NCBI GenBank assembly: GCA_030407085.1
Contig: CM059582.1
Coordinates: 55,436,001-55,500,000 of the forward strand
DNA from: Trichopria drosophilae
Taxonomy: Eukaryota > Arthropoda > Insecta > Hymenoptera > Diapriidae
DNA: 64,000 bases
Reading direction: 5' to 3'
Each line of letters begins with the position of its first letter. The stretch's first letter is position 1. Under the pieces are notes generated by a model, which saw only the letters and a program-made list of their open reading frames with translations, searched no databases and had not been told where the DNA came from. Both the position numbers and the translations under genes were made by a program. Positions 205 through 21,779 of the stretch are shown piece by piece.

Positions 205-698
205 TGTTACGTCCTACGTAACGGGCTTAGATTAGCTATTTTCGAATTGTCGTAATTGCAGATTCCGTTTATTGTAAACCAGCATCAATGAACATTATTT
301 ATTAGCTAGCACTTAACGCATGACGCACAAACACGTTTTTATTTTTCAATTTCACCAATCTCTTATGTTTGATTTCATTATTCGAAACGAGAACAACAAG
401 GCGTTTGTCCATAACTCTTAGGGCCACGTCACCGAACATTTCGACACCGATCTTTCCCAGTTTCTAAAATTTCCACGAAGTGCTTCTTATTATCAGACAA
501 AGTAAACATCTATTTTTTCATTCGTATCCGCGTCGGACTCATCAGAAAGAATCCAATTCTCACGTGCACCTTATCACATTCTAAACTATGAACCTTCACA
601 TCCACGCCCACTCCCAAAATACCAGCGAGTATTTCGTCATCGATTCAACTGCTACAATTTCCACGTGGGACAATATCTACACACCAATACATAAAGAG

Positions 699-767
699 AT
701 AAAAAATAAGATGATCTCTCTCGAAGAGCACAGTCAGTTCTCCTTCAGCAGCGGTGTCGGATAGACC
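699..767 (+). promoter_or_regulatory. LTR core promoter: A/T box, Inr and DPE
   Basis: TCAGTT at 734-739 matches the arthropod initiator. Taking its A (736) as +1, AGACC at 763-767 falls at +28 to +32 and matches the downstream promoter element consensus RGWYV at its canonical spacing. A GATAAAAAAT box lies about 35 bp upstream. The same arrangement is present in the second LTR (TCAGTT 20457-20462, AGACC 20486-20490). Many insect Gypsy elements use TATA-less Inr/DPE promoters. Confidence 0.6.
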
Positions 768-958
768 CCGACAAAATTTGGATAGTGTGTGTTCTTCCAG
801 AAGTGGTATCGGATAGACCCCGACTAAGTTCCGACAATCGCGACTCGACCCGACGTCATTGGACTGATGGTCAACGAATTCTCATAAGGAACGACATCGC
901 GAAGTCAGCATAAGAGCAGTCACAAGTGTTCGGGAAGCGACATCGGTCATCGGACATG

Positions 959-1624
959 GTAAGCAATCCGCTTTATATATCAAAAATATTCCTTAATTAA
1001 CTTTCCTTAATTAACATTCCTTAATCCCCCCCCCCCCAGGAGGCTATAATTAACCGTAAAAGCCTCATTTTTATTTTTATATTTTGTTATTTTTATTGAG
1101 ACGAATGTGTTGATTACCTTTTAATTTTTTTTCTCTTTATTTTAAACAAAAGGAACAACACCTTAGGGGAAATATTTTTTTTATTAGTGATACTAGTGAC
1201 TCGATTCGGCGTCGTTCTTTGAACGAAGAGCCGATCGAGCCACAAGCATCAATAGGGACTGTTAGGTTTCAATCCAGTAATATTACTATGTTTTATTATT
1301 TTATTCTTTCGCTTGTAATATACACCCAGAAAACCCAATATGTATTTTCCTCAAATTATTAACTATTAACAATATCTAATGCATTAAATACTCGGGAATA
1401 TTTAGTTTCTTGAAAACGCGAATTAAAAATCAAATATGTAATTTATTTAAAAGTACATGTAAAATTTCAACTTTTAATTTTCATTTATCGATATATTACT
1501 TTTTATTTCAATAAGTTTTGTAATTCTTTAAATTGTTTTTGTTTAAACAAATAGTTATTCTTATCTAAACTACAAATTTATAATACTCATAATTTATAAT
1601 ATAATATTTTTTTTCTGATTCTAG
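959..1624 (+). other. Candidate intron inside the LTR
   Basis: GTAAGC follows an ATG directly (ATG 956-958, donor at 959). A strong pyrimidine tract ending TTCTAG provides an acceptor at 1624. The signals are conserved in both LTRs. If used, a 666-bp intron would be removed from the leader. This is inferred from signals only. Confidence 0.3.
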
Positions 1625-2052
1625 GAAAAATACACAAAGAAGTTGGACACCGGAGAATCCTCGAAATTATCGCATCCCTAATTCCTTCCAACCCTTCCTT
1701 ATTTTTATCTTTCTAAATAAATGAAATTGTTTACTTTGAGTTTGACTTTTATTTAAATCCAACCTTTATTCTTGTTCTTTTGTATTAGCAGCAGCCCCCA
1801 CAAAATTTCGAACTCAGAATCGACTCTTCCAGTCGATTCCGTCTTTTCGTGGTTGTGTTGAGGTGAAGGTATTTGCAAACATTTCATTGCAAAACGCTTC
1901 CCCACCGGCCATAACAAGTGGTGACAGCGGTGCTCGTGGGAAAACTGTTAATGCAGAGGAACAAATAAAGGTCTAGACTATTTCAACAAAAAAATATATT
2001 AAAAAAATAATAATAATTTTTGCAAAAACACTTCCTTCGCTGCCATACCAAG

Positions 2053-2070
2053 TGGTGACAGCGGTGCTTG
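2053..2070 (+). other. Primer-binding site
   Basis: Two bases after the LTR end comes TGGTGACAGCGGTGCTTG, starting with the TGG that pairs with a tRNA CCA tail. The matching tRNA would end AGCACCGCTGTCACCA; I do not assign the isoacceptor. The same sequence occurs once inside the LTR, at about 1921. Confidence 0.6.
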
Positions 2071-4152
2071 TGGGAAAACTGTCAATGCAAAAGAAGGACT
2101 AGACAATTTCAACAAAAATATATTAATAATTTTTGTAAAAACACTCCCTTCTCGGCCATACCAACTGGTGACGCACTATTATAAAGAAAGAATAATGGAC
2201 TAGCAAGTTTAAAAAACAACAATATTTTTTATCTTTTTAAATAAAAGTAATGGAAAATAGTAAGTTTTCAGAAACTTATAGTAAATCAAAATAGTAGCAA
2301 CCATATGAACAGTAATACTAATAGTTCAATTCTAATATAAATATTATAATATTTATTCATGTTTTTTACTTCCTCAGACATTCCAATTTTTCCTTTACTT
2401 CGGTGTTCGACTTCATAGTGGCTTAGCAATAACTACCTGTTGTGTATTAGTCATCCTTTATTTTCAGGCACTTAAAAACATTTATTTTTCAATTTATGAA
2501 AAAAATCATAATATAATCAATATAAATAGAAAAATTTAATCAATTTCTAATATAGTATACAAATTTTTAACATTCCATTAAAACCTTTCCAAACTCTTTG
2601 ACGAATATATTAAAAAAATATTGAATACTTACACGAAGTTTAATATTATATATATAATATAATATATTTTATAATATATAATATAATATATTTTTGACAC
2701 CTTAGCAACATTTTTAACAACATTTTTGTTTTGATATTAAGAAAAAGTTCAATACATTATTAATAATTTTTATACAGATTTAAAACTTTACTGGTTATTT
2801 TATTTATTAATCAAAAAGAAAACAGAATTATATCAGATATCTTTTGACAAAAAACAAACAATAACATTTTTCCAAAAAAAATACTTCTTTTTGAATTAGT
2901 ATTACAATTGTATTACACTTTCGATATCTTTTTATCAATTTTATTGAAACAAAACAGGGGAGACAAATTTATTAATCATTTAAATTTGTCCAATTTGGAA
3001 TATTTTTTAGACAATTTCCTTGTGACTCTAAGCAATTTTTTCGAATGTAAAGTAACATTTGTAAAATTAAATACACATTAACCTTAAAATTAACCTTATT
3101 TTATTTTAAGCTATAAACAATATTTTGTTTAGATTATATAATCCGTTCATTTTCACTTACAGCTTACGTTTAAAATACAGACGATTTCTAACATAATCTT
3201 TATTTTCGCTCCTGACAAATTTTTATGTTCAAATATGTTTTAAAAACTTACAACATTTGTTAAACGAGTTTTTATTTAAAAAAAAAAAAAAAAAAACTTT
3301 GAAGGTCCACTTTTACATAAGTTCAAATTATAATTAATTTATTTTTTTAAATGGTCTCGTTAATCTCGTTCAAGGTTATTTTTTGCGAATCTTACTAATT
3401 TCCAGCAATTTTGAATTTATAAACAGGTTTTAAAAAGTTATTATTAGCCCAAAACAATTATTAAACACTATCTTTTTGTGCGTATTATTGCATACAATCT
3501 TTCAATTGAATACGACTTTTAAAATAGATTTTTTAAATTATAAATAATTTTGTATTTATAAGTAGTCTTTTTCGTAAACATAATTTCTTCCTAAACAATT
3601 TTCTGTTAAAAATTCTTTTCAGAAAATGTACTGCAAACAAAAAACGCAATAAGTAAATAAATCGAATATAATTTTAATAAATCATCAACGAATTCTCCTT
3701 ATATTATTAATAATTTTCAGAATTTTCGACAATATTTAAACACGTTGTTTTAAAGCAATTGTAAAAGTAATAAATTTCGATGGTAATAATCTTTTAATAA
3801 AATGTATCAACAATAAACAACAAAAAGTCATTACGGAGGATCTATACGAATTATTACAAAAATTTGTGTGAGTTTGTCAGAAATAAAACATAGTTATATA
3901 CACGGTATATTAGCAGTAAAACAGAATTAATTATTCATAAGAAAAGTAAAGAAAATCATTAATAAATAACATCAAAGTGCGTAGAAAAATCCGTAACAAA
4001 ACAAATAAATAGTTATTCAAATGCGTAAGTTGCCTACAACTATACTTAATAAATACCAAGTTATAAAAGCAATCAACGAAATGTATTTCTATATCCTGAA
4101 TTGAAAGAATTTGAAACAAAATTACTAAGCTCCGACACTCCAAAATAAGAAA
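2071..4152 (+). other. Non-coding leader of the LTR element
   Basis: This is about 2.1 kb of very AT-rich DNA with no open frame of note on either strand. It contains a third, degraded primer-site unit near 2155, an A-run near 3281 and a TATA-rich stretch near 2641-2690. No function is seen beyond an untranslated leader. Confidence 0.6.
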
Positions 4153-4960
4153 ATGCACAAATTTCAAACCATGCAAACGCAAAATTTTCACGCAGTACCT
4201 TGGAACTATAATGAATGTCAACCACAAAATTATGAATATTTTCAAGTTCGAAATAAAAAAACACACAATTACAAAAAATTACCTTGGAACTATCAACAAG
4301 ATCAACGCCATACGCATAATTTCCAAACTTCGAATTTCGAAAATTTGCAAGCAGTATCATGGAACTACGAAGAAAACCAACCGCAAAACAGAAAAAAAAT
4401 TCAACAGTTTAACTTAAAGTCGCGAAATTATCAGGATAGTTTCAAATACGACCAACCAAACAATCGTCAAAATAATCGAATTCAATTTCAATGTGCAGAA
4501 TTTCATCAACAAAGTTATATACAAAATAGATCAAGACAAATAAGAATCAAATGTACGCATTGCAAACGTATAGGACATATCTGGCGAGAATGTAACAAAT
4601 TTAAGTAAGAAATAATCTCCGAAGTAGTACACGAATTTAACAGTATAAAGCTATCAAGACGGGAAAACGGGAAAATCACAGACGGAAATTTGGAACAAAC
4701 TGAACATAAAAATCCTAAATATGTACAGAATTATGAAGAGGAAAATAAAACAAACCAGTATTATAATACTAAAAACGAAACCAAAAACAATCGTAAAAAT
4801 AAAACTGACAAAAATTATGAAAGCAAGAACGATACAGGCAATGAATTCGTAACCGAAAACAATACTGACGACGATGATGAATTCGAGAATGATACTGATA
4901 ATGAATATACCATAATTGAGAACGATACTGGTAATGATTACAAAACCAAAACGGACAAAA
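4153..4960 (+). pseudogene. Gag-like protein, N-terminal part (CCHC knuckle)
   Basis: The frame opens at ATG 4153 and shows repeats of a PWNY/SWNY motif (VPWNYNE, LPWNYQQ, VSWNYEE), each spaced by Gln/Asn-rich sequence. A nucleocapsid-type zinc knuckle, CTHCKRIGHIWREC (CX2CX4HX4C), follows near 4552-4593. TAA at 4606-4608 then stops it, but the same frame stays open afterwards to 4960 (EIISEVVHEFN, then an Asp/Asn/Lys-rich tract). That segment aligns with EIASEILQEFN after the second knuckle further on, so the TAA looks like a mutation inside one long ancestral frame. The frame is then cut by the DNA transposon at 4961. The putative role is RNA packaging/capsid for the LTR element. Confidence 0.7.
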
Positions 4961-5602
4961 TAGTCCAGTCATTATGTACATTTAAAAAAGTAATAATTTG
5001 AAGCAGCAATTTTATTTTTGGGGCATGTTGGGGGAGTCAAGAAAAGCTTAACTTCAAGTTTTCGACCTCTGAGGTGGCTTGCTTTTTTTTATAACCTAAA
5101 AAATGTAATAAAATCGTATTTTTTAAATAACTCGGCTTCTAATGAAGTTAGAAGGTTCACTTAGGGCTCATTTTAAAGATTTTTTTGCGCTTTACAACTT
5201 TTTCTAAGAAAATTGTTTTATCCGATCGATAGTTTTCGATATATCGAAGGATAAATGAAAAAAAGACGTACTTTATTTAGTTTTTTGCTTTTTACGTGGA
5301 ATTGGAAACGGAAAATAAAAAAGTAATGTAAGACAAAGTTGTAGAGAATTAAATAACGAACAATTTCTTTTTTTAATCGTTTCGTTTCGATGAAAATTGC
5401 GCCTTGTAGAGCGTCACAAAGTAGACAGTCGGCGTCAGCGTGTAAGCAGCGAGTTGTTCATATCGATATGCTGCGACGGAGCGTTTTCGCTGAAATAAAA
5501 GACTTTATTCAAGCATAATTATTATGTAATATGTATTTTTTGAAGGTTTTTTTGTGAGCTACACGTTACAAAAAAAGGAAAAATAAAAATTGAGCAGTTT
5601 AG
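4961..5602 (+). repeat. Left terminal inverted repeat (~640 bp)
   Basis: It matches the reverse complement of about 8614-9265, including the segments TTTTTGGGGCATGTTGGGGG and GAGCGTTTTCGCTGAAATAA. Homology ends near AAATTGAGCAGTTT. The right copy carries a short insertion next to its tip (TTTGGGAT). Confidence 0.85.
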
Positions 5603-5812
5603 TACATGCGTTTAAAATAAAACGGGAAAGGCAATAAAATAGTTATTTAGAAAGTACGTTTTGCACGTAAGTAATATTATTTAACGATGGAAGATTATTT
5701 GTTAAGTACAAGGTGTGCGAATGAAAACATTTTATATGAAAAAGTGATATTTATTTTTGTCGACATTTATTTTTACATTTTCTCGTTTTTCATTAAAAAA
5801 TGGATTAAAAAA

Positions 5813-7258
5813 TTAAATCTTTCTTGAACGCTTTGCTTGTGGTTCATGTTCGTAGTCGTCATCTTCGCAGAATACGCCATTGTTGGCCTCTCGCGTGTCA
5901 AGTAGATCGTCGGAATCGTCATCCATGTCGTCATCTAATTCGTCGTTTTGCAAAATTTCTGCTGGCGTTGTAGAATTAAGACACGTTTGTCCAGAACAGA
6001 ATTGCGAAAACCCGTTGTTCAAAACGTTGTCTTTTTTTCCTTGTATGCTGGAGTTCTCGAAAGATAATACTTCCCCGTACGACGCGCTGAATCCCATTTT
6101 CGATAAGATGTTAATGAGCGTTTTAGATGCAAATTTCTTATACAAAAACGCCCCTACGCCAATTTGAAGAGGCGAGAGAAATGAACGCGGTCGTACGGCT
6201 GCGATGATAGCGTGCGCAATGGAGATGACTTTTCTCTCCCAAGGAATCAGCAAACCACGTTTATCTTTTAAAATAATTTCAGACAAAAACACTTGCAGTG
6301 TTTCAGGCACGGCAGATTTTACGTCTTTTACGAAATCGTCGGATGGTGGATACGTATCTGTTTCGTAAACTTCGGAGCGAATATCACGACGAAGTATAGC
6401 CGCGGCTTCGCGTAAAACTCTCAGCTTTTCTTCTGTGGGGTCTGTTCTTTTCTTTCGGTACCAATTATCTTCAAGTAATTTGTAGCCAATATTTCGAAAG
6501 CAAATCATAGTACCGCGCTTTTGCCTTTCGACTATTATGATGTCATCGCCGTACTTTTCGAGTAGTCGCGCTTTTATGGTTTTCAGGTGAGGAATGTGGT
6601 CTGTTTTTACTTGTTCCAGTAAGAATTCCAGTGAAAATTGACATTCATTGGAATTCTCCTCGAGATATGCATAAATTTGCGACATACCTTCATCGATGAC
6701 GTTAGAAAATGGTCTTCCGGTTTGAACGTGCGTTACCTCTCTAACCACGTGTTTATAACATTTTCTGTGGTAGCGAGCTTTCGCGGCAACCAGATCCGTA
6801 ACGCGATTCATGCGGTTCTTTATTGCAACAGCAATTTCATCTTTTCGACCACCAAGTTTGGTCACAATTTCTTGTTTCGATGAAGCGTGCTGAATCAATG
6901 AAATTCTGGATCGGTATTTCTGAGGAACTTTCGAGGAAGATTCTTTAGCTTCTTCGCCGCAGAACAGGCATTTTTTTTCAAAATCGAAATCTGGATGACG
7001 CTGAACTTCTCGTGATGTTGATGGCGATTCGACATTGCTACTTCGTCGAGAAGCTACAGCAGCTAATCGTTTATTGGAATAATTTTTATAACATGCACCG
7101 TGTAAAGTAACTTCAGTCAATGCCTGCAACTGTGTTTTCTTTTCCGTGTCTCCTCTTGACTCGCACACAGATAAAAGAGATTTAATGCCTCTCGATTTTA
7201 CCACTACAATGTCTTGAACCATAGATTGCTCACATATCAAACACTTAGAGTCACTCAT
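5813..7258 (-). CDS. Zinc-binding transposon protein, 481 aa
   Basis: This is the only gene of the long-TIR element. Two Cys/His modules mark the N-terminal half: CLICEQS (about residues 7-13) with HGACYKNY (about 53-60), and CLFCGEE (about 96-102) with YHRKCYKHV (about 163-171). A folded region without a motif known to me follows, including SPLQIGVGAFLYKKF near residue 370. The C-terminus is acidic (DELDDDMDDDSDD) and ends in a basic PQAKRSRKI, likely a nuclear signal. I have seen this N-terminal architecture in much longer proteins of arthropod and marine invertebrate repeats that carry further C-terminal sequence, so this may be the DNA-binding half only. No DDE triad can be pointed to. 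The frame is open with no stops; the start is the Met before the first Cys pair. Confidence 0.75.
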   Translation of the reverse strand: MSDSKCLICEQSMVQDIVVVKSRGIKSLLSVCESRGDTEKKTQLQALTEVTLHGACYKNYSNKRLAAVASRRSSNVESPSTSREVQRHPDFDFEKKCLFCGEEAKESSSKVPQKYRSRISLIQHASSKQEIVTKLGGRKDEIAVAIKNRMNRVTDLVAAKARYHRKCYKHVVREVTHVQTGRPFSNVIDEGMSQIYAYLEENSNECQFSLEFLLEQVKTDHIPHLKTIKARLLEKYGDDIIIVERQKRGTMICFRNIGYKLLEDNWYRKKRTDPTEEKLRVLREAAAILRRDIRSEVYETDTYPPSDDFVKDVKSAVPETLQVFLSEIILKDKRGLLIPWERKVISIAHAIIAAVRPRSFLSPLQIGVGAFLYKKFASKTLINILSKMGFSASYGEVLSFENSSIQGKKDNVLNNGFSQFCSGQTCLNSTTPAEILQNDELDDDMDDDSDDLLDTREANNGVFCEDDDYEHEPQAKRSRKI

Positions 7259-8613
7259 TGTCCCGTTAAGTATATTAAAATGTATCCTGATATTGTAAAA
7301 TGTTCACTTCACTTCTATATTAAAACGCATCCATTCATTGCGATACACACAGCATAACTGACAAGTGTGTTAAGCATAATTTTCCAGCCGACAGATGTTT
7401 GCTACGTCCCGGAATTTCTATGACCCTCGAATTCCAATACCACATTGTCTTCCGCCGCCCGGGTCGTTTTTCAGGTTTCAGGTAGAAGAGTGTTTGTTGG
7501 AAAGGTACAGAAACATCACGGTCACTGCAACTGAAAAATATTTGAAATGTTAATGTTAGCCTGCGTTTATTTTTATTATTATTTTTATCATTAATATTAT
7601 CATTGTCGTAATTATTATTATTATCATAACCCGGAAAAAAACCAAGACTCAATATTGAGTATTAATATTGCACAAATTAAATGTAAATTAAATAGGATTT
7701 AATTAAATTAGGCTCACAAAAATTTCGAATATTTAATTATTTAAATAAAAAATTCATATTTAATTGAAAACAAATTTAAAATAATATTAATTTCATCACA
7801 ATACGTATCATACATTTCCGAATAACTTCTTAATTTATGTAGAATTTAAAGTTTATTTTATATTTTCTGCAAATTATTCTTCAGTATAAACCTAGTTTTA
7901 ATTTTAATTAAATAGGTTTCAAATGAATAGCAACTGATTATCATTACTATTATTATTATTATTATTCTTACGGCATCGTATATCAACGTGATCAATTCAT
8001 TGTTGACGGTACACTCTACTTTTTCATATGAATAACCGATTTTAAACTCGTAATTGTTGAGTGCATTGAAATTAATATATTAGTTTATTTTTAGATTTTC
8101 TGTCGACCATTCGTCTATTTTACTTACTTTATAACAAACACTTAAGTGTATTAACTTCGAGTCAACAAAATAAAATTTTGAGGTTAGAAAATCTAAAATT
8201 GCAATTCATACCGTTTACGAAAGAGAAAGTATCGATAATTACACTTACCGAAGTTGAAGATTTTGATGTAAACGAAATGAACGTTCGTTGCAAAGTACGA
8301 CACACTTTTTTCACTGATTATTCGTTAAAACTTGAACACGTGCACGCTCGTACAGTGAAAGAATCGCGTCTACCACGTTCCCGCGGCTTCTCGGGCCGAA
8401 GACAGCTGTTCGGTCGTCATTTGGCAACGCAGCAAAGCAAAGGTTTTGGCAATACAGGAATTCCATCCGAACACCACAATTATTTATCATTACAATTACT
8501 ACTGTAAGTATCAAAATTTACTATTAAATTTTACTATTTATATTGCTATTTAAGTTTTATTTCAATCACATGTACAGTCTTATGAAAAAATTTATAAAAC
8601 AGAAAAAACGAAT
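7259..8613. other. Transposon interior without a recognised gene
   Basis: AT-rich, with ATT/TTA microsatellite patches near 7570-7630 and 7945-7970. A plus-strand open frame at 8178-8507 has no recognisable domain and is probably chance. Confidence 0.5.
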
Positions 8614-9265
8614 AAAATTGCTCAATTTTTATTTTTCCTTTTTTTGTAACGTGTAGCTCACAAAAAAAACCTTCAAAAAATACATATTACATAATAATTA
8701 TGCTTGAATAAAGTCTTTTATTTCAGCGAAAACGCTCCGTCGCAGCATATCGATATGAACAACTCGCTGCTTACACGCTGACGCCGACTGTCTACTTTGT
8801 GACGCTCTACAAGGCGCAATTTTCATCGAAACGAAACGATTAAAAAAAGAAATTGTTCGTTATTTAATTCTCTACAACTTTGTCTTACATTACTTTTTTA
8901 TTTTCCGTTTCCAATTCCACGTAAAAAGCAAAAAACTATATAAAGTACGTCTTTTTTTTCATTTATCCTTCGATATATCGAAAACTATCGATCGGATAAA
9001 AAAATTTTCTGAAAAAAAGTTGTAAAGCGCAAAAAAATCTTTAAAATGAGCCCTAAGTGAACCTTCTAACTTCATTAGAGGCCGAGTTATTTAAAAAATA
9101 CGATTTTATTACATTTTTTAGGTTATAAAAAAAAGCAAGCCACCTCAGAGGTCGAAAACTTGAAGTTAAGCTTTTCTTGACTCCCCCAACATGCCCCAAA
9201 AATAAAATTGCTGCTTCAAATTATTACTTTTTTATCCCAAATTTTTGTACATAATGACCGGACTA
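8614..9265 (-). repeat. Right terminal inverted repeat (~650 bp)
   Basis: Inverse copy of 4961-5602, ending GGACTA. AAA at 9266-9268 is the duplicated target. Confidence 0.85.
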
Positions 9266-10456
9266 AAAATTCACAAACTGTTCAACAAAATTACACCCAA
9301 TATAAATCAAACCGAAAAAGAATCTATTGTACACATTGCACAAATATAGGACATAACTGGCAACAATGCAAGAAATTTAGAGATGAGATAGCCTCAGAAA
9401 TATTACAAGAATTTAACAGCCAAAACAAGCTAGAAAAAGAACATGACTGTGAATCAGGTAATGAAAACCGTAATGATCATGAAATAGAGAGTATAACCGA
9501 TGACGACCATGAAACCATGAACATGCCCAACGACAATTATAATACTGAGAGCTACATCGACAATGATAATAAAACGACGCACAAAATTAATATCAATTAC
9601 GAAGATAGACACCACACTGCGAACGATGATGAAATAGAAAATAAAACCAACTATTATGAAATTGGGAATGAAATCATTCATGATTCTGAATGTGCGAATA
9701 TAATCGACAACACTTATTTAGCCAAGCACTACACCGACATCAGTCATGAAATTAAAAAGAAAACCAACAAAGATTATAAAACTGAAAACTATGAAAACCT
9801 TCAAGCAGCAATGAAGAAACTTAAACGTTCCCAAAAATGGAAATCCCAAAATTACAATGCTGTACCTTGGAACTATGAAGATAACCATGAAAATCAAGAA
9901 CAACAAAGAATATTCTGTGAAAAAGAATCTCCCTACGATTATCAACATTTTTACCTATATCGTAGCAAGAGACAAGTTTACGAAAATAAGAGTCAAGATC
10001 TCAAAACGAGTATTTATCAAAACGAGTATGAAACCATCAAGGACAATGAACATGAAGCATATAACGAATACAATGAATGCCATGAAAATAGTGAAAACAA
10101 TGAAAGTAATAAAAATAATAAAAACAATGAAAATGAAAATAATGAAATTAATGAAAATAATGAAAATAATAAAAACAACGTACATAATAAAAATAATAAA
10201 TATATTCAAATTAATCAAAATAATCAAAATAATCAAAATAATGAGAATTATGAAAATATTAAAACTAACCAAAATAATGAAAATAATGAAAACAATGAAA
10301 ATACTGAAAATAATAAAAACAACGTACATAATAAGAATAATAAATATAATCAAAATAATAAAAATAATGAATATAATGAGAATTATGAAAATATTAAAAC
10401 TAACAAAAATAAAGAAAATACTGAAAATAAAGAAAATAATGAAAATAATGAAAATA
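9266..10456 (+). pseudogene. Gag-like protein, middle part (left copy)
   Basis: Continuation of the gag-like frame after the DNA transposon; the open frame actually starts inside the inverted repeat at 9208. It carries the second knuckle CTHCTNIGHNWQQC (CX2CX4HX4C) and EIASEILQEFN. An acidic Asp/Asn/His-rich tract and another PWNYED motif follow, then the beginning of the Asn-Asn-Glu repeat. It is cut by the LINE after 10456, where the frame runs into the LINE tail and stops. The frame is unbroken through the position (about 9488) where the right copy has lost two bases. Confidence 0.7.
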
Positions 10457-10587
10457 GATAGATAGATATTTATTACTCTTGTAAAGGGATAGATGTCCCG
10501 TAGAGATGGAGTCCCGTAATCGGGCATTACATAGTGTTACAAAGATATTTACAAAGTATTTCTTAAGCTAAACTAATCTAAACTAAG
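10457..10587 (-). other. LINE 3' UTR and (TCTA)n tail
   Basis: Short 3' region after the ORF2 stop, ending in ATCTATCTATC next to the target. Simple tetranucleotide tails replace poly(A) in several LINE clades. Confidence 0.7.
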
Positions 10588-13500
10588 CTAATCGCCTAAC
10601 ATAAAAGCCCGGCGCCTGAAACATGCTTTCACAAAAAAGTATAGAGTTTTCGCTGAAGTAACGTCGTTGGCGCAGATAAGACTTATGATAATATTTTCCG
10701 GCGACGTGGACAAGACATTTTTAGCGAGGGAAAGATTTTCTCGTAGAACATGATAAAGAGGACAATCAAAAAGAATATGCATAAGATTTTCATTAGTGCG
10801 GAGATTACATAGCGAGCAGAGAGCCGTCGGATCGTATGCGAAACGCTGTCCAGATATTAGCAAAGATCTAGAATGAATCGTGGATACTCTAAGTTGGATT
10901 CTTAGTTTCAAATGATCAGGAGGAAGACGGACCGGATAATGCATGGAATATGAGTCATTATAATTTCGGTAAATGGGTAATTGCGGAGAGTTGGCGTTGC
11001 AGTAATGTTCGAAATCACTTTTCCTGCTTAGTTTGGCAAACTGATCTACTATTGTTAGCCTTTTCCGCTCCCAGAAATCTGCATCAAAATTCGCCCATAG
11101 TTCGTTGTCCCCCAATTTGTCGGTAAAAGGTTTAACTTGTGACAGCCAGTTAAAAGAGTCACTCGAATTGGCCTGAAGTAAGTCCCTTAAGCGCGTCAGA
11201 AGTATTTTTGGAAGCCTAAAGTCGGGTAGGCGTAAGACTTTAACAACCCATTTCATAGCACGATTAAGTACCTCTACAGCTATAGAATGAAGGCCGAACT
11301 CCAGCCGAATTAAATATGATGGTGTATTTACCGGGAGGTTGAAGATGCGCTTGAAAAAAGTGATCTGAGCGGACTCTAGGTAAGAGGTATATCTAAGACC
11401 CCACAGTTGAGCGGCATAAAGCAGGATGGAAGTAATGCTCGCTCCATATAGTTTCCAAATTGCCTCCCAAGAATCTATTTTAGCGTTGGCTATAATTGAT
11501 GCGATTGCGGCAGACGCGGCTTTGGTTTTTATGGTGGTTTCCTTACAGGCTAATAAACCCTGCGCGGAGGAGGAAAAGATAACTCCCAAATACCGATAAC
11601 TATTGACGACCTCAACCGGACTACCGTTAAATGCAAAATGTCTCGAGTTAGAGTCTAAATGTCCGCCCCTTCTGAAGCACATAATTTTGGTTTTTTCGAC
11701 ATTAACCATAAGGCCGTTACACTCCGAGTACTCCGAAAGTAGCCGCAACTTCTCGCGTAAGTCCGCCGGTGAATAGGCGAAAATCGTAAGATCGTCGGCG
11801 TAGATTAGCATGAGCAGATCAAATGAAGTTGTTAAATCAACACCTCTGACCCCCCTTCCCCTGAAGAAGTCTGTCAAGTCAGCTAAATAGAGTAGGAAAA
11901 GATGAGGGCTTAAAATTTCACCTTGTAGCACTCCTATGGTCACGTCCGCTTCTATCAAGTGTCCGTTCGCCATTTTGACTGATAAGGATGCCGTTTCATA
12001 GATGGCTCTTAAAATCCTTATGAATTTGGCGCTGACACCTAAACCCGCCAGTTTCTTCCAGAGCAGTGCGTGTGGAACCGTGTCGAATGCTCTTTTGAAA
12101 TCTACAAATATGCTATAGATTTTGGATTTCTTCCGCCGGAGGGCTATCTGTACAGCGGCGAGAAGGCAAAAGATGTTCTCCTCCGTACCTCTTCCGCAAC
12201 GAAATCCTGCTTGTTCTTCTTGTATAATATTCCTACGTGTTGTCCAGTCTATAAGTCGTTTATTCAAAATCTGTGAGAATATTTTAGATATGGCGTTTGT
12301 TATCGCAATTAATCTGTGGCTAAAAGGATCATCTCTTAAGCCTTTCTTAAAGATGGTAAAAACAGTCGCCCGGGCCCAGTCACTGGGAAATTCTTCTCGC
12401 TCAAAAAACGCGTTAAAAATATCTAATAAACGAAAAGTTGAAGAGTTGTCAAGTAGTTTGAAAACTTCTGCAGGTAGACTATCCGGACCAACTGCCTTAC
12501 CGGCCTTGAGTGAGTTAATGCTCGCCAATAATTCATTATGGGTTAAAGGAGAATCGAGTGAAGGATCGTGGATATTGGGAAGCAGAAGTAAAGGATTGGT
12601 AGTTTGGGGAAAAACTGTAGAAAAAAAGTTTCTCCACGCTTCCTCCGAAATCAATGATCCAACAGACGGTTTCTTAGAGAAAAGACGGACCGTTTTCCAA
12701 AAGTCGCAGGCATTCTTAGTCGCAGCAAAGGTATCGGTTAATTTGGAAATATGAACTAGCTTCTTATTTGCAATTAATTTCGTATATGATTTTTTAGCTA
12801 TTTTATATTCCTGAACTGTGAGCTCGCTATAATCATTTCGCCGCATTACATATAAACAGCGCTTTGTTTGTTTTCTCGCTGCAGCACAGTCTCGATCAAA
12901 CCACAAGTTACGCTGAAAATTGGTAAAACTAACACTACGATGATAGGTCGCCACTAATATGTTAGATTCTAAAGCGAGTTCTTTGAGCTTCCTGCAAAAA
13001 CTTACGTAATTCGCGGTAGGATCTGCACTTGCGGGATCTTCCCAAGTTCTCGATTTTTTTAAGGCTGCTACAAAATTATCATACCCATCTTTCGACCTCA
13101 CAACTCTCACTCCGGGTACACTAGCTGAAAGAGCGTGAGAATCTGCCTGAATTGCGCGTTCGGAACGTAAAAATAGAGATAAAAATACCGGTAAATGATC
13201 GGACCCGTGGAGATCGTCGCCTAATTTGAGATCGTGCACAAAAGGTAAATGAGTGTCGGAAACCCACACTAGATCGACTATACTGAAGCCATTGCTGCCA
13301 AGAAAAGTAAAGTGGGCCGGAGTGTCACTAAGTGACCTGCCATTGATTAAAACGAAATTGTTGGAACGCATGAACTCCAGTAGAGCCGAGCCGTGCTTAT
13401 TGTGCACCGCCTCGTGGGATACTCGCATCGATGAGACATTAGAGTTTTCAAATATTTGATCAATGTCGTAATTGTCGTTCAATGTCTCAATCCTGCAATT

Positions 13501-14112
13501 AAAATCGCCACCAAGTACAAACATACAGTCCAAAAACTGGGTTTTAAGAGCATCGAGAACATTATTTAAATTTAAAAAAATTATAGACAGATCTGCGTTT
13601 GGAGGAATATAAAAAGAGCCGATAATAACTTTAATAGGTAATGTGTTGAGTGAATAAAAAATCCAATTTGGTGAAACGTCGAGAATTTCGTGAGCAAAAT
13701 CAGGATTTATCATAGATAAAAGCCCTCCACTGAAACGTCCAATGGAGGCTGCACGAGTGGCTGCAGAAAAAATCGTACCCGAGTTAGACTTTAGTTCGCG
13801 AATCTTATTTTCGACGTTGCACCAAGTTTCTGAAAAATTAACAATACTTTGTGTTGATGAGAAAGAATTATTTTTAATATTTAAAAAACCGCGGGCGTTC
13901 CAAAAAACAATACGGGTTACTTTACACTTTTGCGCATCAAATACAGTGTTTCCATGTGTCGATGAGTCCGTTGAACTTTTTGCCTTAGATACCGGAGATG
14001 TTGATGACGAAGAAGAGAGATGGGTAGCCTTTAAAAATTTTGTTGATCTTGAGACGTCGATTTGGGTAAAATGCCTTCCATAGGACCCGTTAGGGCTTCT
14101 CCAGAAGCACAA
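10588..14112 (-). CDS. LINE ORF2: endonuclease-reverse transcriptase
   Basis: This 1174-residue protein nicks target DNA and copies the LINE RNA in place. The apurinic-type endonuclease occupies about residues 60-330, with FWNARGF, SETWC, GGDFNCR and SDHLPVF boxes in the family order. The reverse transcriptase (about 500-800) shows KAGKAVGPDSLPAEVF, EEQAGFRCGRGT, FVDFKRAFDTV, GVLQGEILSP and the catalytic IYADDLTIF. Near the C-terminus a CX2CX9HX4C zinc motif (CSLC...HILFDC, about residue 1095) is usual for APE LINEs. The first Met is at 14112, 82 bp inside ORF1. Translation by reinitiation or frameshifting is inferred from the overlap. No stop or frameshift is present. Confidence 0.93.
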   Translation of the reverse strand: MCFWRSPNGSYGRHFTQIDVSRSTKFLKATHLSSSSSTSPVSKAKSSTDSSTHGNTVFDAQKCKVTRIVFWNARGFLNIKNNSFSSTQSIVNFSETWCNVENKIRELKSNSGTIFSAATRAASIGRFSGGLLSMINPDFAHEILDVSPNWIFYSLNTLPIKVIIGSFYIPPNADLSIIFLNLNNVLDALKTQFLDCMFVLGGDFNCRIETLNDNYDIDQIFENSNVSSMRVSHEAVHNKHGSALLEFMRSNNFVLINGRSLSDTPAHFTFLGSNGFSIVDLVWVSDTHLPFVHDLKLGDDLHGSDHLPVFLSLFLRSERAIQADSHALSASVPGVRVVRSKDGYDNFVAALKKSRTWEDPASADPTANYVSFCRKLKELALESNILVATYHRSVSFTNFQRNLWFDRDCAAARKQTKRCLYVMRRNDYSELTVQEYKIAKKSYTKLIANKKLVHISKLTDTFAATKNACDFWKTVRLFSKKPSVGSLISEEAWRNFFSTVFPQTTNPLLLLPNIHDPSLDSPLTHNELLASINSLKAGKAVGPDSLPAEVFKLLDNSSTFRLLDIFNAFFEREEFPSDWARATVFTIFKKGLRDDPFSHRLIAITNAISKIFSQILNKRLIDWTTRRNIIQEEQAGFRCGRGTEENIFCLLAAVQIALRRKKSKIYSIFVDFKRAFDTVPHALLWKKLAGLGVSAKFIRILRAIYETASLSVKMANGHLIEADVTIGVLQGEILSPHLFLLYLADLTDFFRGRGVRGVDLTTSFDLLMLIYADDLTIFAYSPADLREKLRLLSEYSECNGLMVNVEKTKIMCFRRGGHLDSNSRHFAFNGSPVEVVNSYRYLGVIFSSSAQGLLACKETTIKTKAASAAIASIIANAKIDSWEAIWKLYGASITSILLYAAQLWGLRYTSYLESAQITFFKRIFNLPVNTPSYLIRLEFGLHSIAVEVLNRAMKWVVKVLRLPDFRLPKILLTRLRDLLQANSSDSFNWLSQVKPFTDKLGDNELWANFDADFWERKRLTIVDQFAKLSRKSDFEHYCNANSPQLPIYRNYNDSYSMHYPVRLPPDHLKLRIQLRVSTIHSRSLLISGQRFAYDPTALCSLCNLRTNENLMHILFDCPLYHVLRENLSLAKNVLSTSPENIIISLICANDVTSAKTLYFFVKACFRRRAFMLGD

Positions 14113-15182
14113 GACATGTCTTGGGTTTCATGTTCTGCGAGATTTGACAGGGCAACAAATTCTTGTAGTTCGTCGGACCAGGATAATCGTTTGTTGCCCA
14201 GAAAAACACTTCTACCTCGTCTAGAGAACGAGATGTTGTCTGCCGTTGCTTTGCGGCGTGCCTCACGAACCTTATATTCGAATAGACGTTCGTTGTCTGT
14301 AAGGTCGTTCGAAATAAAGATATTGGTATTTCGCAACACTTTTCTTTTTTCTGTCAAGATTTTCGATTTCTGGTCAGCCGATGTTAATTCCGCTAATAAA
14401 GTCGGTGGATTGGCTTTTAATGTTGTGACTGAGGCAACAGCATTCTCAAGCGAAAACTTATCCGCAAGAAAAGCATCTACATCCTGTTTCGACGAATCCT
14501 TATTATTATTTCGAAGGCCGGTAATAATAATATTTTTCCGCTTAAGTTGTCTTTCCAGGGATTCAACTTTCGCTTTGAGTTGCTCATTTGTACTCGCGTT
14601 TTCTTCAACTTTCTTTTCGAGGGCGGTAATGCGCGCTGAGAACTCATTCCTCTGGTCAAGAACTATTTGTGTCAAGCCAGCGACGTCGCGCCTAATTTCC
14701 TCACTATTGGCATTTACGGAAACGGCGACAGCTGAAATCGACGCTTGCAGCGCAGCTTGCATTTTGCTAAGTGCTGCTTCGGAAGCCATATCGTTTAAGT
14801 CCGTTAATATTTCTGGATCAGATTCGTCAAGTTGATTTATTTTTTTTTTTGAAGTCCTATTGTCGTCACTTTTGCTAGTGTTCGATTCCGGCGACAAGAT
14901 GTTTTGTCCTTTTTCGCTTATTAATAACGTAGGAGTCGAGCGTGCCACAGCTGTTCGAGCGTAAGTCTTTCCACCGGGCGGCAGTGGGAGGCCGACCCGA
15001 GAGAAGGGATGGTCGAATGAGCGGTGCGAGTCGCACCTCCTTCTTCCCCGAAGATTGACTGGGGGGAGTGACTGACTGGCCGCTACAGCTGGGAGGCGAA
15101 CCTTTCTCCGACGTGTAAGGTAGACTGCACGGCTGGAAAGTGCTGTCGCCTGGTGAGATATAGTGGAAGGAGAACGTGGCAA
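14031..15182 (-). CDS. LINE ORF1: RNA-binding coiled-coil protein
   Basis: This 383-residue protein has a basic, low-complexity N-terminus and a heptad-rich coiled coil at about residues 165-220 (ITALEKKVEENASTNEQLKA). Directly after comes an RRM-like segment beginning KRKNIIITGLRNN (about 220-300). The C-terminal module ends RRGRSVFLGNKRLSWSDEL. This order resembles L1-type ORF1 proteins, which trimerise and coat the element RNA. The first Met (15182) gives an Arg/Ser-rich start; a later Met is possible. The related fragment at 60196-60570 conserves the same C-terminal module. Confidence 0.82.
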   Translation of the reverse strand: MPRSPSTISHQATALSSRAVYLTRRRKVRLPAVAASQSLPPVNLRGRRRCDSHRSFDHPFSRVGLPLPPGGKTYARTAVARSTPTLLISEKGQNILSPESNTSKSDDNRTSKKKINQLDESDPEILTDLNDMASEAALSKMQAALQASISAVAVSVNANSEEIRRDVAGLTQIVLDQRNEFSARITALEKKVEENASTNEQLKAKVESLERQLKRKNIIITGLRNNNKDSSKQDVDAFLADKFSLENAVASVTTLKANPPTLLAELTSADQKSKILTEKRKVLRNTNIFISNDLTDNERLFEYKVREARRKATADNISFSRRGRSVFLGNKRLSWSDELQEFVALSNLAEHETQDMSCASGEALTGPMEGILPKSTSQDQQNF

Positions 15183-15451
15183 GAGGAGCAGATACGTCTA
15201 GCTGAAGATTCCGCCTGATTAGCGTAGTCACGGCAGAGATCAATTTCGAGCCTGCGCAGTTCTAACGGCAGGAGCACATGTACCCCTTCGTCTTGATGCC
15301 AGATGGAAGATTGAGGTTAGAATACCCCTCAAATGAGTCAATCAGTGCTCAAAAATGTCCAAAAAAATAAGCTCCCTTGAGCGCTTTCACCACTGACACA
15401 CTGTCAAGCGAAAAGAACACCACTGCACGACAAAAATGATAACTTTTATGC
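15183..15451 (-). other. LINE 5' untranslated region
   Basis: About 270 bp between the element start and ORF1. No promoter element is assigned. It ends exactly where the duplicated gag sequence resumes. Confidence 0.6.
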
Positions 15452-16820
15452 AAACCAAAAACAATCGTAAAAATAAAACTGACAAAAATTATGAAAGCAA
15501 GAACGATACAGGCAATGAATTCGTAACCGAAAACAATACTGACGACGATGATGAATTCGAGAATGATACTGATAATGAATATACCATAATTGAGAACGAT
15601 ACTGGTAATGATTACAAAACCAAAACGGACAAAAATTCACAAACTGTTCAACAAAATTACACCCAATATAAATCAAACCGAAAAAGAATCTATTGTACAC
15701 ATTGCACAAATATAGGACATAACTGGCAACAATGCAAGAAATTTAGAGATGAGATAGCCTCAGAAATATTACAAGAATTTAACAGCCAAAACAAGCTAGA
15801 AAAAGAACATGACTGTGAATCAGGTAATGAAAACCGTAATGATCATGAAATAGAGTATAACCGATGACGACCATGAAACCATGAACATGCCCAACGACAA
15901 TTGTAATACTGAGAGCTACATCGACAATGATAATAAAACGACGCACAAAATTAATATCAATTACGAAGATAGACACCACACTGCGAACGATGATGAAATA
16001 GAAAATAAAACCAACTATTATGAAGTTGGGAATGAAATCATTCATGATTCTGAATGTGCGAATATAATCGACAACACTTATTTAGCCAAGCACTACACCG
16101 ACATCAGTCATGAAATTAAAAAGAAAACCAACAAAGATTATAAAACTGAAAACTATGAAAACCTTCAAGCAGCAATGAAGAAACTTAAACGTTCCCAAAA
16201 ATGGAAATCCCAAAATTACAATGCTGTACCTTGGAACTATGAAGATAACCATGAAAATCAAGAACAACAAAGAATATTCTGTGAAAAAGAATCTCCCTAC
16301 GATTATCAACATTTTTACCTATATCGTAGCAAGAGACAAGTTTACGAAAATAAGAGTCAAGATCTCAAAACGAGTATTTATCAAAACGAGTATGAAACCA
16401 TCAAGGACAATGAACATGAAGCATATAACGAATACAATGAATGCCATGAAAATAGTGAAAACAATGAAAGTAATGAAAATAATAAAAACAATGAAAATGA
16501 AAATAATGAAATTAATGAAAATAATGAAAATAATAAAAACAACGTACATAATAAAAATAATAAATATATTCAAATTAATCAAAATAATCAAAATAATCAA
16601 AATAATGAGAATTATGAAAATATTAAAACTAACCAAAATAATGAAAATAATGAAAACAATGAAAATACTGAAAATAATAAAAACAACGTACATAATAAGA
16701 ATAATAAATATAATAAAAATAATAAAAATAATGAATATAATGAGAAATATGAAAATATTAAAACTAACAAAAATAAAGAAAATACTGAAAATAAAGAAAA
16801 TAATGAAAATAATGAAAATA
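15452..16820 (+). repeat. 1.37-kb direct duplication, right copy
   Basis: Uninterrupted copy of 4778-4960 + 9269-10456. Differences I can see are few: a G for A at about 15903, a two-base deletion at about 15853, and GAA for AAA in the repeat tract near 16473. It preserves the empty target of the DNA transposon. Confidence 0.88.
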
Positions 16821-19915: not shown

Positions 19916-19927
19916 TAAGAGGGGGGG
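19916..19927 (+). other. Polypurine tract
   Basis: AAGAGGGGGGG abuts the second LTR and would prime plus-strand synthesis. Confidence 0.8.
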
Positions 19928-21775
19928 TGTTACGTCCTACGTAACGGGCTTAGATTAGCTATTTTCGAATTGTCGTAATTGCAGATTCCGTTTATTGTAA
20001 ACCAGCATCAATGAACATTATTTATTAGCTAGCACTTAACGCATGACGCACAAACACGTTTTTATTTTTCAATTTCACCAATCTCTTATGTTTGATTTCA
20101 TTATTCGAAACGAGAACAACAAGGCGTTTGTCCATAACTCTTAGGGCCACGTCACCGAACATTTCGACACCGATCTTTCCCAGTTTCTAGAATTTCCACG
20201 AAGTGCTTCTTATTATCAGACAAAGTAAACATCTATTTTTTCATTCGTATCCGCGTCGGACTCATCAGAAAGAATCCAATTCTCACGTGCACCTTATCAC
20301 ATTCTAAACTATGAACCTTCACATCCACGCCCACTCCCAAAATACCAGCGAGTATTTCGTCATCGATTCAACTGCTACAATTTCAACGTGGGACAATATC
20401 TACACACCAATACATAAAGAGATAAAAAATAAGATGATCTCTCTCGAAGAGCCCAGTCAGTTCTCCTTCAGCAGCGGTGTCGGATAGACCCCGACAAAAT
20501 TTGGATAGTGTGTGTTCTTCCAGAAGTGGTATCGGATAGACCCCGACTAAGTTCCGACAATCGCGACTCGACCCGACGTCATTGGACTGATGGTCAACGA
20601 ATTCTCATAAGGAACGACATCGCGAAGTCAGCATAAGAGCAGTCAGAAGTGCTCGGGAAGCGACATCGGTCATCGGACATGGTAAGCAATCCGCTTTATA
20701 TATCAAAAATATTCCTTAATTAACTTTCCTTAATTAACATTCCTTAATCCCCCCCCCCCACAGGAGGCGATAATTAACCGTAAAAGCCTCATTTTTATTT
20801 TTATATTTTGTTATTTTTATTGAGACGAATGTGTTGATTACCTATTAATTTTTTTTTCTCTTTATTTTAAATAAAAGGAACAACACCTTAGGGGAAATAT
20901 TTTTTTTATTAGTGATACTAGTGACTCGATTCGGCGTCGTTCTTTGAACGAAGAGCCGATTGAGCCACAAGCATCAATAGGGACTGTTAGGTTTCAATCC
21001 AGTAATATTACCATGTTTTATTATTTTATTCTTTCGCTTGTAATATACACCCAGAAAACCCAATATGTATTTTCCTCAAATTATTAACTATTAACAATAT
21101 CTAATGCATTAAATACTCGGGAACATTTAGTTTCTTGAAAACGCGAATTAAAAATCAAATATGTAATTTATTTAAAAGTACATGTAAAATTTCAACTTTT
21201 AATTTTCATTTATCGATATATTACTTTTTATTTTAATAAGTTTTGTAATTCTTTAAATTGTTTTTGTTTAAACAAATAGTTATTCTTATCTAAACTACAA
21301 ATTTATAATACTCATAATTTATAATATAATATTTTTTTTCTGATTCTAGGAAAAATACACAAAGAAGTTGGACACCGGAGAATCCTCGAAATTATCGCAT
21401 CCCTAATTCCTTCCAACCCTTCCTTATTTTTATCTTTCTAAATAAATGAAATTGTTTACTTTGAGTTTGACTTTTATTTAAATCCAACCTTTATTCTTGT
21501 TCTTTTGTATTAGCAGCAGCCCCCACAAAATTTCGAACTCAGAATCGACTCTTCCAGTCGATTCCGTCTTTTCGTGGTTGTGTTGAGGTGAAGGTATTTG
21601 CAAACATTTCATTGCAAAACGCTTCCCCACCGGCCATAACAAGTGGTGACAGCGGTGCTCGTGGGAAAACTGTTAATGCAGAGGAACAAATAAAGGTCTA
21701 GAATATTTCAACAAAAAAATATATTAAAAAAATAATAATAATTTTTGCAAAAACACTTCCTTCGCTGCCATAACA
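19928..21775 (+). repeat. 3' LTR
   Basis: This 1848-bp LTR is nearly identical to 205-2050 and ends CATAACA, followed by CATG. It carries the same Inr/DPE pair and candidate splice signals as the first LTR. Confidence 0.92.
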
Positions 21776-21779
21776 CATG
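21776..21779. repeat. Target-site duplication CATG (right)
   Basis: Matches 201-204. Confidence 0.85.

Follow-up and report, generated by a model that had tools for sequence, protein, structure and literature searches.

Background

Target-site duplications (TSDs) in the kilobase range have been described for long interspersed nuclear elements (LINEs). Human L1 elements inserted in nucleotide-excision-repair-deficient cells are flanked by TSDs that range from 5 bp to 5.3 kb (median 1495 bp), which the authors tentatively explain by a second nick that is distal and unrelated (Servant et al., PMC5223499). The zebrafish LINE ZfL2-2 produced a TSD of 1228 bp in one of 25 inserts in wild-type chicken DT40 cells (PMC2666801), and a tumour L1 is associated with a somatic tandem duplication of 22.6 Mb attributed to sister-chromatid bridging (PMC7058536). 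HERV-K (HML-2) exhibits target duplications of 111 and 250 bp, with a "pseudo-TSD" formed by recombination discussed as the rival explanation (PMC5488345). The subject of this report is a LINE flanked on both sides by direct copies of a 1.37-kb target block, here called D, within 64,000 bp of the Trichopria drosophilae genome (GCA_030407085.1, contig CM059582.1, positions 55,436,001 to 55,500,000 of the forward strand). This stretch is referred to as the window and all positions are counted from its first base.

The locus is probably the product of one LINE insertion by target-primed reverse transcription (TPRT) that left a kilobase TSD. It resembles the L1 inserts of PMC5223499 in this mode of insertion, in the direct target duplication abutting both ends, in the overlapping sizes and in the 5' truncation of the insert. 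Those inserts derive from engineered L1 in cultured human cells, whereas the copy described here is natural, comes from a different LINE family, whose tail is (TATC)n, is nested in a long terminal repeat (LTR) retrotransposon and has lost only 57 nucleotides (nt). As with ZfL2-2, a lone kilobase TSD stands among short target changes (1/25 there, 1/26 here), although the former was a de novo event in cell culture and the latter emerges from a genomic survey (PMC2666801). The tumour L1 likewise lies singly between two direct target copies, with the joining of cDNA to a distant end as the proposed cause, but its duplication spans 22.6 Mb in somatic cells compared with 1.37 kb in an assembled genome (PMC7058536). 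The unusually long target duplication is shared with HERV-K (HML-2), which differs in being integrated as a retrovirus and in its shorter duplication (PMC5488345).

The LINE and its duplicated target

The LINE, its two open reading frames (ORFs) and the two copies of D are arranged as follows.

4778–4960, plus strand: left copy of D, part 1, identical to 15452–15634
9269–10456, plus strand: left copy of D, part 2, its last base being the LINE 3' insertion point
10457–15451, minus strand: LINE of 4995 bp, antisense to a gag-like ORF, with its (TATC)n 3' tail at 10457 and its 5' end, which lacks 57 nt, at 15451
10588–14112, minus strand: LINE ORF2 frame of 1174 amino acids (aa) with endonuclease and reverse transcriptase (Pfam PF00078 RVT_1, 9.7e-31; PF14529 Exo_endo_phos_2, 8.1e-10)
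14031–15182, minus strand: LINE ORF1 frame of 383 aa, its sole Pfam match, CASP_C, being below the cut-off (20.7 bits, curated threshold 28)
15452–16820, plus strand: right copy of D, 1369 bp, directly adjoining the LINE 5' side

The first-pass annotation of the window had claimed that the sequence of 4778–4960 plus 9269–10456 recurs at 15452–16820 with differences at a few sites, and alignment of the copies bears this out to the base. From end to end the left copy (1371 bp) and the right copy (1369 bp) are separated by five substitutions and one 2-bp indel, giving 99.6% identity when gapped columns are set aside (5 of 1369 positions differ); a match of 1.37 kb at such identity rules out a chance repeat. 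The identity ends sharply at both outer edges, where the left copy meets the LINE tail and the right copy meets the LINE 5' side. At its 3' edge the left copy reads GAAAATA and then GATAGATAG, which is LINE tail, and the right copy continues from GAAAATA into ATAGAAAC. At the 5' edge of the right copy, TTTTATGC of the LINE 5' side is followed by AAACC, and in the left flank AAAAACG is followed by the same AAACC. Each end of the LINE is in direct contact with the target repeat, no other target sequence lying between, as is expected of the L-TSD class (LINE insertions with a TSD longer than 20 bp).

The insert itself is an endonuclease/reverse transcriptase element attached by its 3' tail at the side of the first nick. 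The (TATC)n tail also occurs in sister copies of this LINE in the genome, and protein searches with the LINE retrieved distant relatives only, most of them unnamed. The copy in the window is 5'-truncated, since sister copies reach 57 nt past its 5' end; the duplication does end at 10457 and 15451 as had been annotated, but 15451 is not the true 5' end of the LINE family. The 5' joint features a microhomology of 3 nt (TTT), the sister sequence just upstream ending in TTTT and the target flank in GGTTT. The truncation and the microhomology fit the annealing-type 5' joining described for LINEs (PMC4245944).

A joining artefact, in which the haplotype bearing the LINE was misjoined to the empty one at the junction of the LINE 5' end with D, would need just one novel junction, and the evidence considered here is the assembled sequence. 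Against this, the window contains no N and sits in a 218.7-Mb contig, the D copies have distinct differences with a DNA transposon in the left copy alone, and the joint carries microhomology and lies near the LINE 5' end, both being features of real 5' junctions. The chance that the structure was created by assembly is thus considered slim.

The empty site in paralogues of the host element

A search of the genome (936 Mb) with D, in which the best 40 of 224 candidates were scored, led to eight loci being fetched, two of them the window's own and six of them paralogues. The empty site is taken from paralogues of the LTR element and not from an allele. D is single and colinear through both junctions in all six paralogous loci, each compared over about 4.3 kb. 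The TSD layout of about 1.37 kb put forward in the first-pass annotation is exact at both LINE ends and has a single-copy counterpart in 6/6 loci, and a duplication of D without the LINE was seen in none of these six copies of the LTR element.

Together with two further loci (L075 and L076), eight paralogues were compared with both D copies of the window. The closest is L075, which covers D 1–1171 with 14–15 mismatches and 9–11 gap bases to either window copy (98.7–98.8% identity over ungapped columns) and is equally distant from both; over the same interval the window copies are 3 substitutions and the 2-bp indel apart. The other paralogues exhibit 93–98% identity to the window D, and the best-scoring place that covers all of D, among the best 40 of 224 candidates, reaches 95%. 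Because even the closest paralogue is more diverged from the window copies than these are from each other, the alignments indicate that D was duplicated at its own locus and was not copied in from any of the eight compared paralogues. With L075, the closest of the eight, equally distant from both copies, a paralogous template for the second one is rejected among the loci compared.

A tandem duplication of D could have preceded the LINE, for instance during reverse transcription of the LTR element, with the LINE then arriving exactly at the D–D boundary. The older internal repeats in the host region (a 60% match at 4489–4713 and a 9-nt array) suit such a history, but it needs an insertion at one base in 1.37 kb that left no TSD of its own. 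The sole other same-strand pair within 20 kb among the best 40 of 224 candidates, L062/L063, is 90% alike and has another boundary. Prior duplication is accordingly rated as very improbable.

Sister insertions of the LINE

Searches with the 5' kilobase of the LINE yielded 25 matches from 22 candidates, and those with the 3' kilobase yielded 42 matches from the best 40 of 63 candidates, so that further copies may exist. Among the latter, at least 30 distinct places in the 936 Mb show at least 93% identity to the LINE 3' end, the window's own included. Besides the window copy, 25 copies could be read at both ends. L017, whose 3' end is missing, four places without the LINE 3' tail end, parts of copies already counted and weak matches of 64–76% were left out. 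The TSD was taken as the longest shared string adjoining both ends, with L019, L025 and L027/L030 judged by eye. Short TSDs of 9–27 bp are found in 19/25 of these copies, with the following lengths.

L010 13 bp, L011 11 bp, L012 13 bp, L013 20 bp, L014 13 bp, L015 27 bp
L016 12 bp, L020 10 bp, L021 9 bp (weak), L023 16 bp, L029 15 bp
L025 about 9–13 bp, L028 about 14 bp, L027/L030 13 bp (by eye)
L067 12 bp, L068 15 bp, L070 19 bp, L072 27 bp, L019 13 bp (by eye)

No TSD was recognised at the other six (L018, L022, L033, L071, L073 and L074), and at L071, L073 and L074 there is also no long one within the flanks. A long direct duplication of the flanks is present in 0/25 copies, array sequence at L015 and L070 aside, within a detectable span of roughly 3–5 kb for most copies, about 2.7 kb for L071 and 1.9 kb for L027/L030. 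The window copy is consequently the one copy in 26 with a long TSD, and the survey of sister copies proposed in the first-pass annotation shows it to be exceptional. With 19/25 copies carrying a TSD of 9–27 bp and none a long one, ordinary TPRT insertion is, on the evidence of these flanks, the rule in the family, and a kilobase TSD as a family habit is ruled out. Because 6/25 copies have no recognised TSD, the family may also insert in other ways, for example with deletion of target sequence. The flanks of L071, which comprise a reverse transcriptase-like region and an array, suggest by eye such a deletion.

Several flank matches were rejected as long TSDs. At L070 the LINE copy lies in a tandem satellite array whose repeat shift is about 163 bp, and its TSD is an ordinary one of 19 bp; at L015 the match comes from a 9-nt array that surrounds the 27-bp TSD. 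The 141-bp match at L018 is inverted and not direct, and the match at L030/L027 (47 bp, 79%) is distant from the ends. The duplication at L031/L016 is a separate 431-bp event that carries the LINE's 5' end: flank together with the initial ~190 nt of the LINE forms a segment that recurs 5.57 kb upstream with 95.6% identity (L031, L041 and L016; G000:C1:63312238-63321797). At L011, L030 and L068 the TSD and the LINE 5' edge are separated by 17–38 nt, extra nucleotides of the sort described for LINEs (PMC4245944). Among those at L011, LINE 5' sequence is present a second time. L015 and L071 are LINE copies within related elements that contain 9-nt arrays, and such elements may be hit by the LINE above chance.

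The Bar duplication of Drosophila arose by recombination between transposon copies and has the element exactly at the junction of the tandem duplication. A comparable non-allelic exchange would involve two LINEs that share subfamily and orientation and had entered different alleles of the LTR element at points 1.37 kb apart, with a crossover within the LINE, and it predicts exactly the order D–LINE–D with both short TSDs hidden inside D. The location of L015 and L071 in similar repeat-array elements, which may be hit above chance, also speaks for it. Bar required two element copies, however, and there is no evidence of a second one here; two insertions in the same orientation within 1.4 kb are improbable for a family with at least 30 places in 936 Mb. 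The window LINE is also of a single subfamily along its length, as 32 diagnostic sites (positions 869–4858) group it with L010–L013 as opposed to L014, L015, L016 and L028. No subfamily switch occurs along these sites, although two young copies could not be distinguished by them. Recombination of this type is considered improbable.

The host retrotransposon and the nested DNA transposon

The LINE, both copies of D and the DNA transposon in the left copy are all contained in one LTR retrotransposon (205–21775) with LTRs of 1.85 kb.

205–2050, plus strand: 5' LTR, with TG...CA ends and the TSD CATG at 201–204; direct repeat of 99.1% identity with 19927–21775
4961–9265: DNA transposon with inverted repeats of ~650 bp (TAGTCC...GGACTA) and an AAA target duplication, its site being empty in the right copy of D
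19928–21775, plus strand: 3' LTR, with the TSD CATG at 21776–21779 and the purine run AGAGGGGGGG just before it

The interior of the host element features gag-like frames together with an array of 9-nt repeats, and one gag-like ORF is rich in 9-nt repeats of the Asn/Glu kind. The label "gag-like" refers to CCHC-type motifs judged by eye, and a Pfam search of these frames returned no family. The element is probably non-autonomous, since there is no pol frame among its ORFs of at least 150 aa.

The DNA transposon contains an ORF of 481 aa on the minus strand that has no Pfam match at E 0.001. Its 3-bp AAA target duplication was counted by eye against the empty site in the right copy of D. This empty site agrees with the order of events annotated earlier, in which the LINE event preceded the DNA transposon, an order that is valid only if the two D copies do not stem from two alleles.

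Age and polarity of the changes

The LTR pair exhibits 14 substitutions in 1847 sites and 2 single-base indels, and its divergence does not differ significantly from the 5/1369 of the D pair (Fisher p = 0.17), which is compatible with a duplication younger than the LTR element. Among five young LINE copies compared over 4960 sites, the window LINE has 25 private changes and the others have 22–31.

Several observations weigh against a single insertion event. The D pair differs at 5 sites, fewer than the 13.8 expected from the private changes of the LINE (Poisson p = 0.006); without CpG sites 11.6 differences are expected (p = 0.026), and the LTR rate predicts 10.4 (p = 0.054). On these counts D could have been duplicated after the LINE arrived. 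The rate from private changes is probably an overestimate, both because these changes include changes of the source element and copying errors and because it exceeds the per-copy rate of the LTRs, even though the LINE should postdate the LTR insertion. The two D copies are also unevenly changed. When polarised by the paralogues, the right copy has the derived state at four differences (15903, 16025, 16747 and the 2-bp indel) and the left copy at one (16475, at 10111 in the left copy), and at 16715 the right copy is probably derived, a site that is ambiguous since the paralogues show both bases. Of the 6 differences, 4 or 5 are thus changes in the right copy and 1 is a change in the left (binomial p = 0.22 for 5:1). 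Furthermore, the microhomology lends weak support to an annealing-type joint because 3 nt or more is expected at 5.4% of random junctions, and a single event cannot be proved from one assembly.

The similarity of the D copies beyond what the private divergence of the LINE predicts suits an unequal exchange, in which an ordinary insertion with a short TSD at 10456 was followed by an illegitimate exchange that joined the LINE 5' end, 57 nt in, to an empty allele or a sister chromatid at position 4778. The final structure would be the same, and the missing 57 nt and the microhomology would be accounted for. Such an exchange nevertheless requires two events as well as a break within 57 nt of the LINE 5' end, which is about 1% of its length, and 5' truncation is common in the family anyway, 11/26 other copies with a located 5' edge starting at least 29 nt inside the LINE. 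This two-step history is held to be unlikely.

Proposed insertion event

A single target-primed insertion with a kilobase TSD remains the probable explanation. The LINE endonuclease would have nicked the plus strand at the present 10456 (16820 in the right copy of D), within the 9-nt array of the gag-like ORF, and from the new 3' end reverse transcription would have begun at the (TATC)n tail. The cDNA would have halted 57 nt before the 5' end of the RNA, and its end would have joined the target 1369 bp upstream of the first nick through the TTT microhomology. Fill-in would then leave one copy of D on each side, and the DNA transposon would have entered the left copy later. The strand layout fits TPRT, as a plus-strand nick after 10456 combined with a joint 1369 bp upstream would place D on both sides of the insert.

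The route to the far joint is inferred, as is the single event itself. A distal nick of the second strand is slightly favoured over a cDNA end that jumped to, or invaded, the opposite strand or the sister chromatid. The first-pass annotation had offered two mechanisms, nicks more than 1 kb apart and repair that copied the target; both match published models and both are retained here. One variant is that the LINE's reverse transcriptase jumped from 57 nt short of the RNA 5' end to DNA 1.37 kb upstream and copied D, with no second-strand nick nearby. On this view the new copy of D would be the right one, in keeping with its 4 or 5 derived changes of 6, but this variant is given a low likelihood.

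Implications for LINE integration

The locus represents a rare outcome of a known process and a natural example with internal controls, kilobase TSDs of LINEs being already in print. It is one case and introduces no new process. The completion of LINE integration in its second half remains poorly understood, and those kilobase duplications by LINEs that were found in print come from cell culture and tumours (PMC2666801, PMC5223499, PMC7058536). A natural case at base resolution, with paralogues that preserve the empty site and 25 sister insertions for comparison, indicates that a genome can retain insertions of this kind. A LINE insertion alone can probably duplicate its target in tandem over a kilobase.

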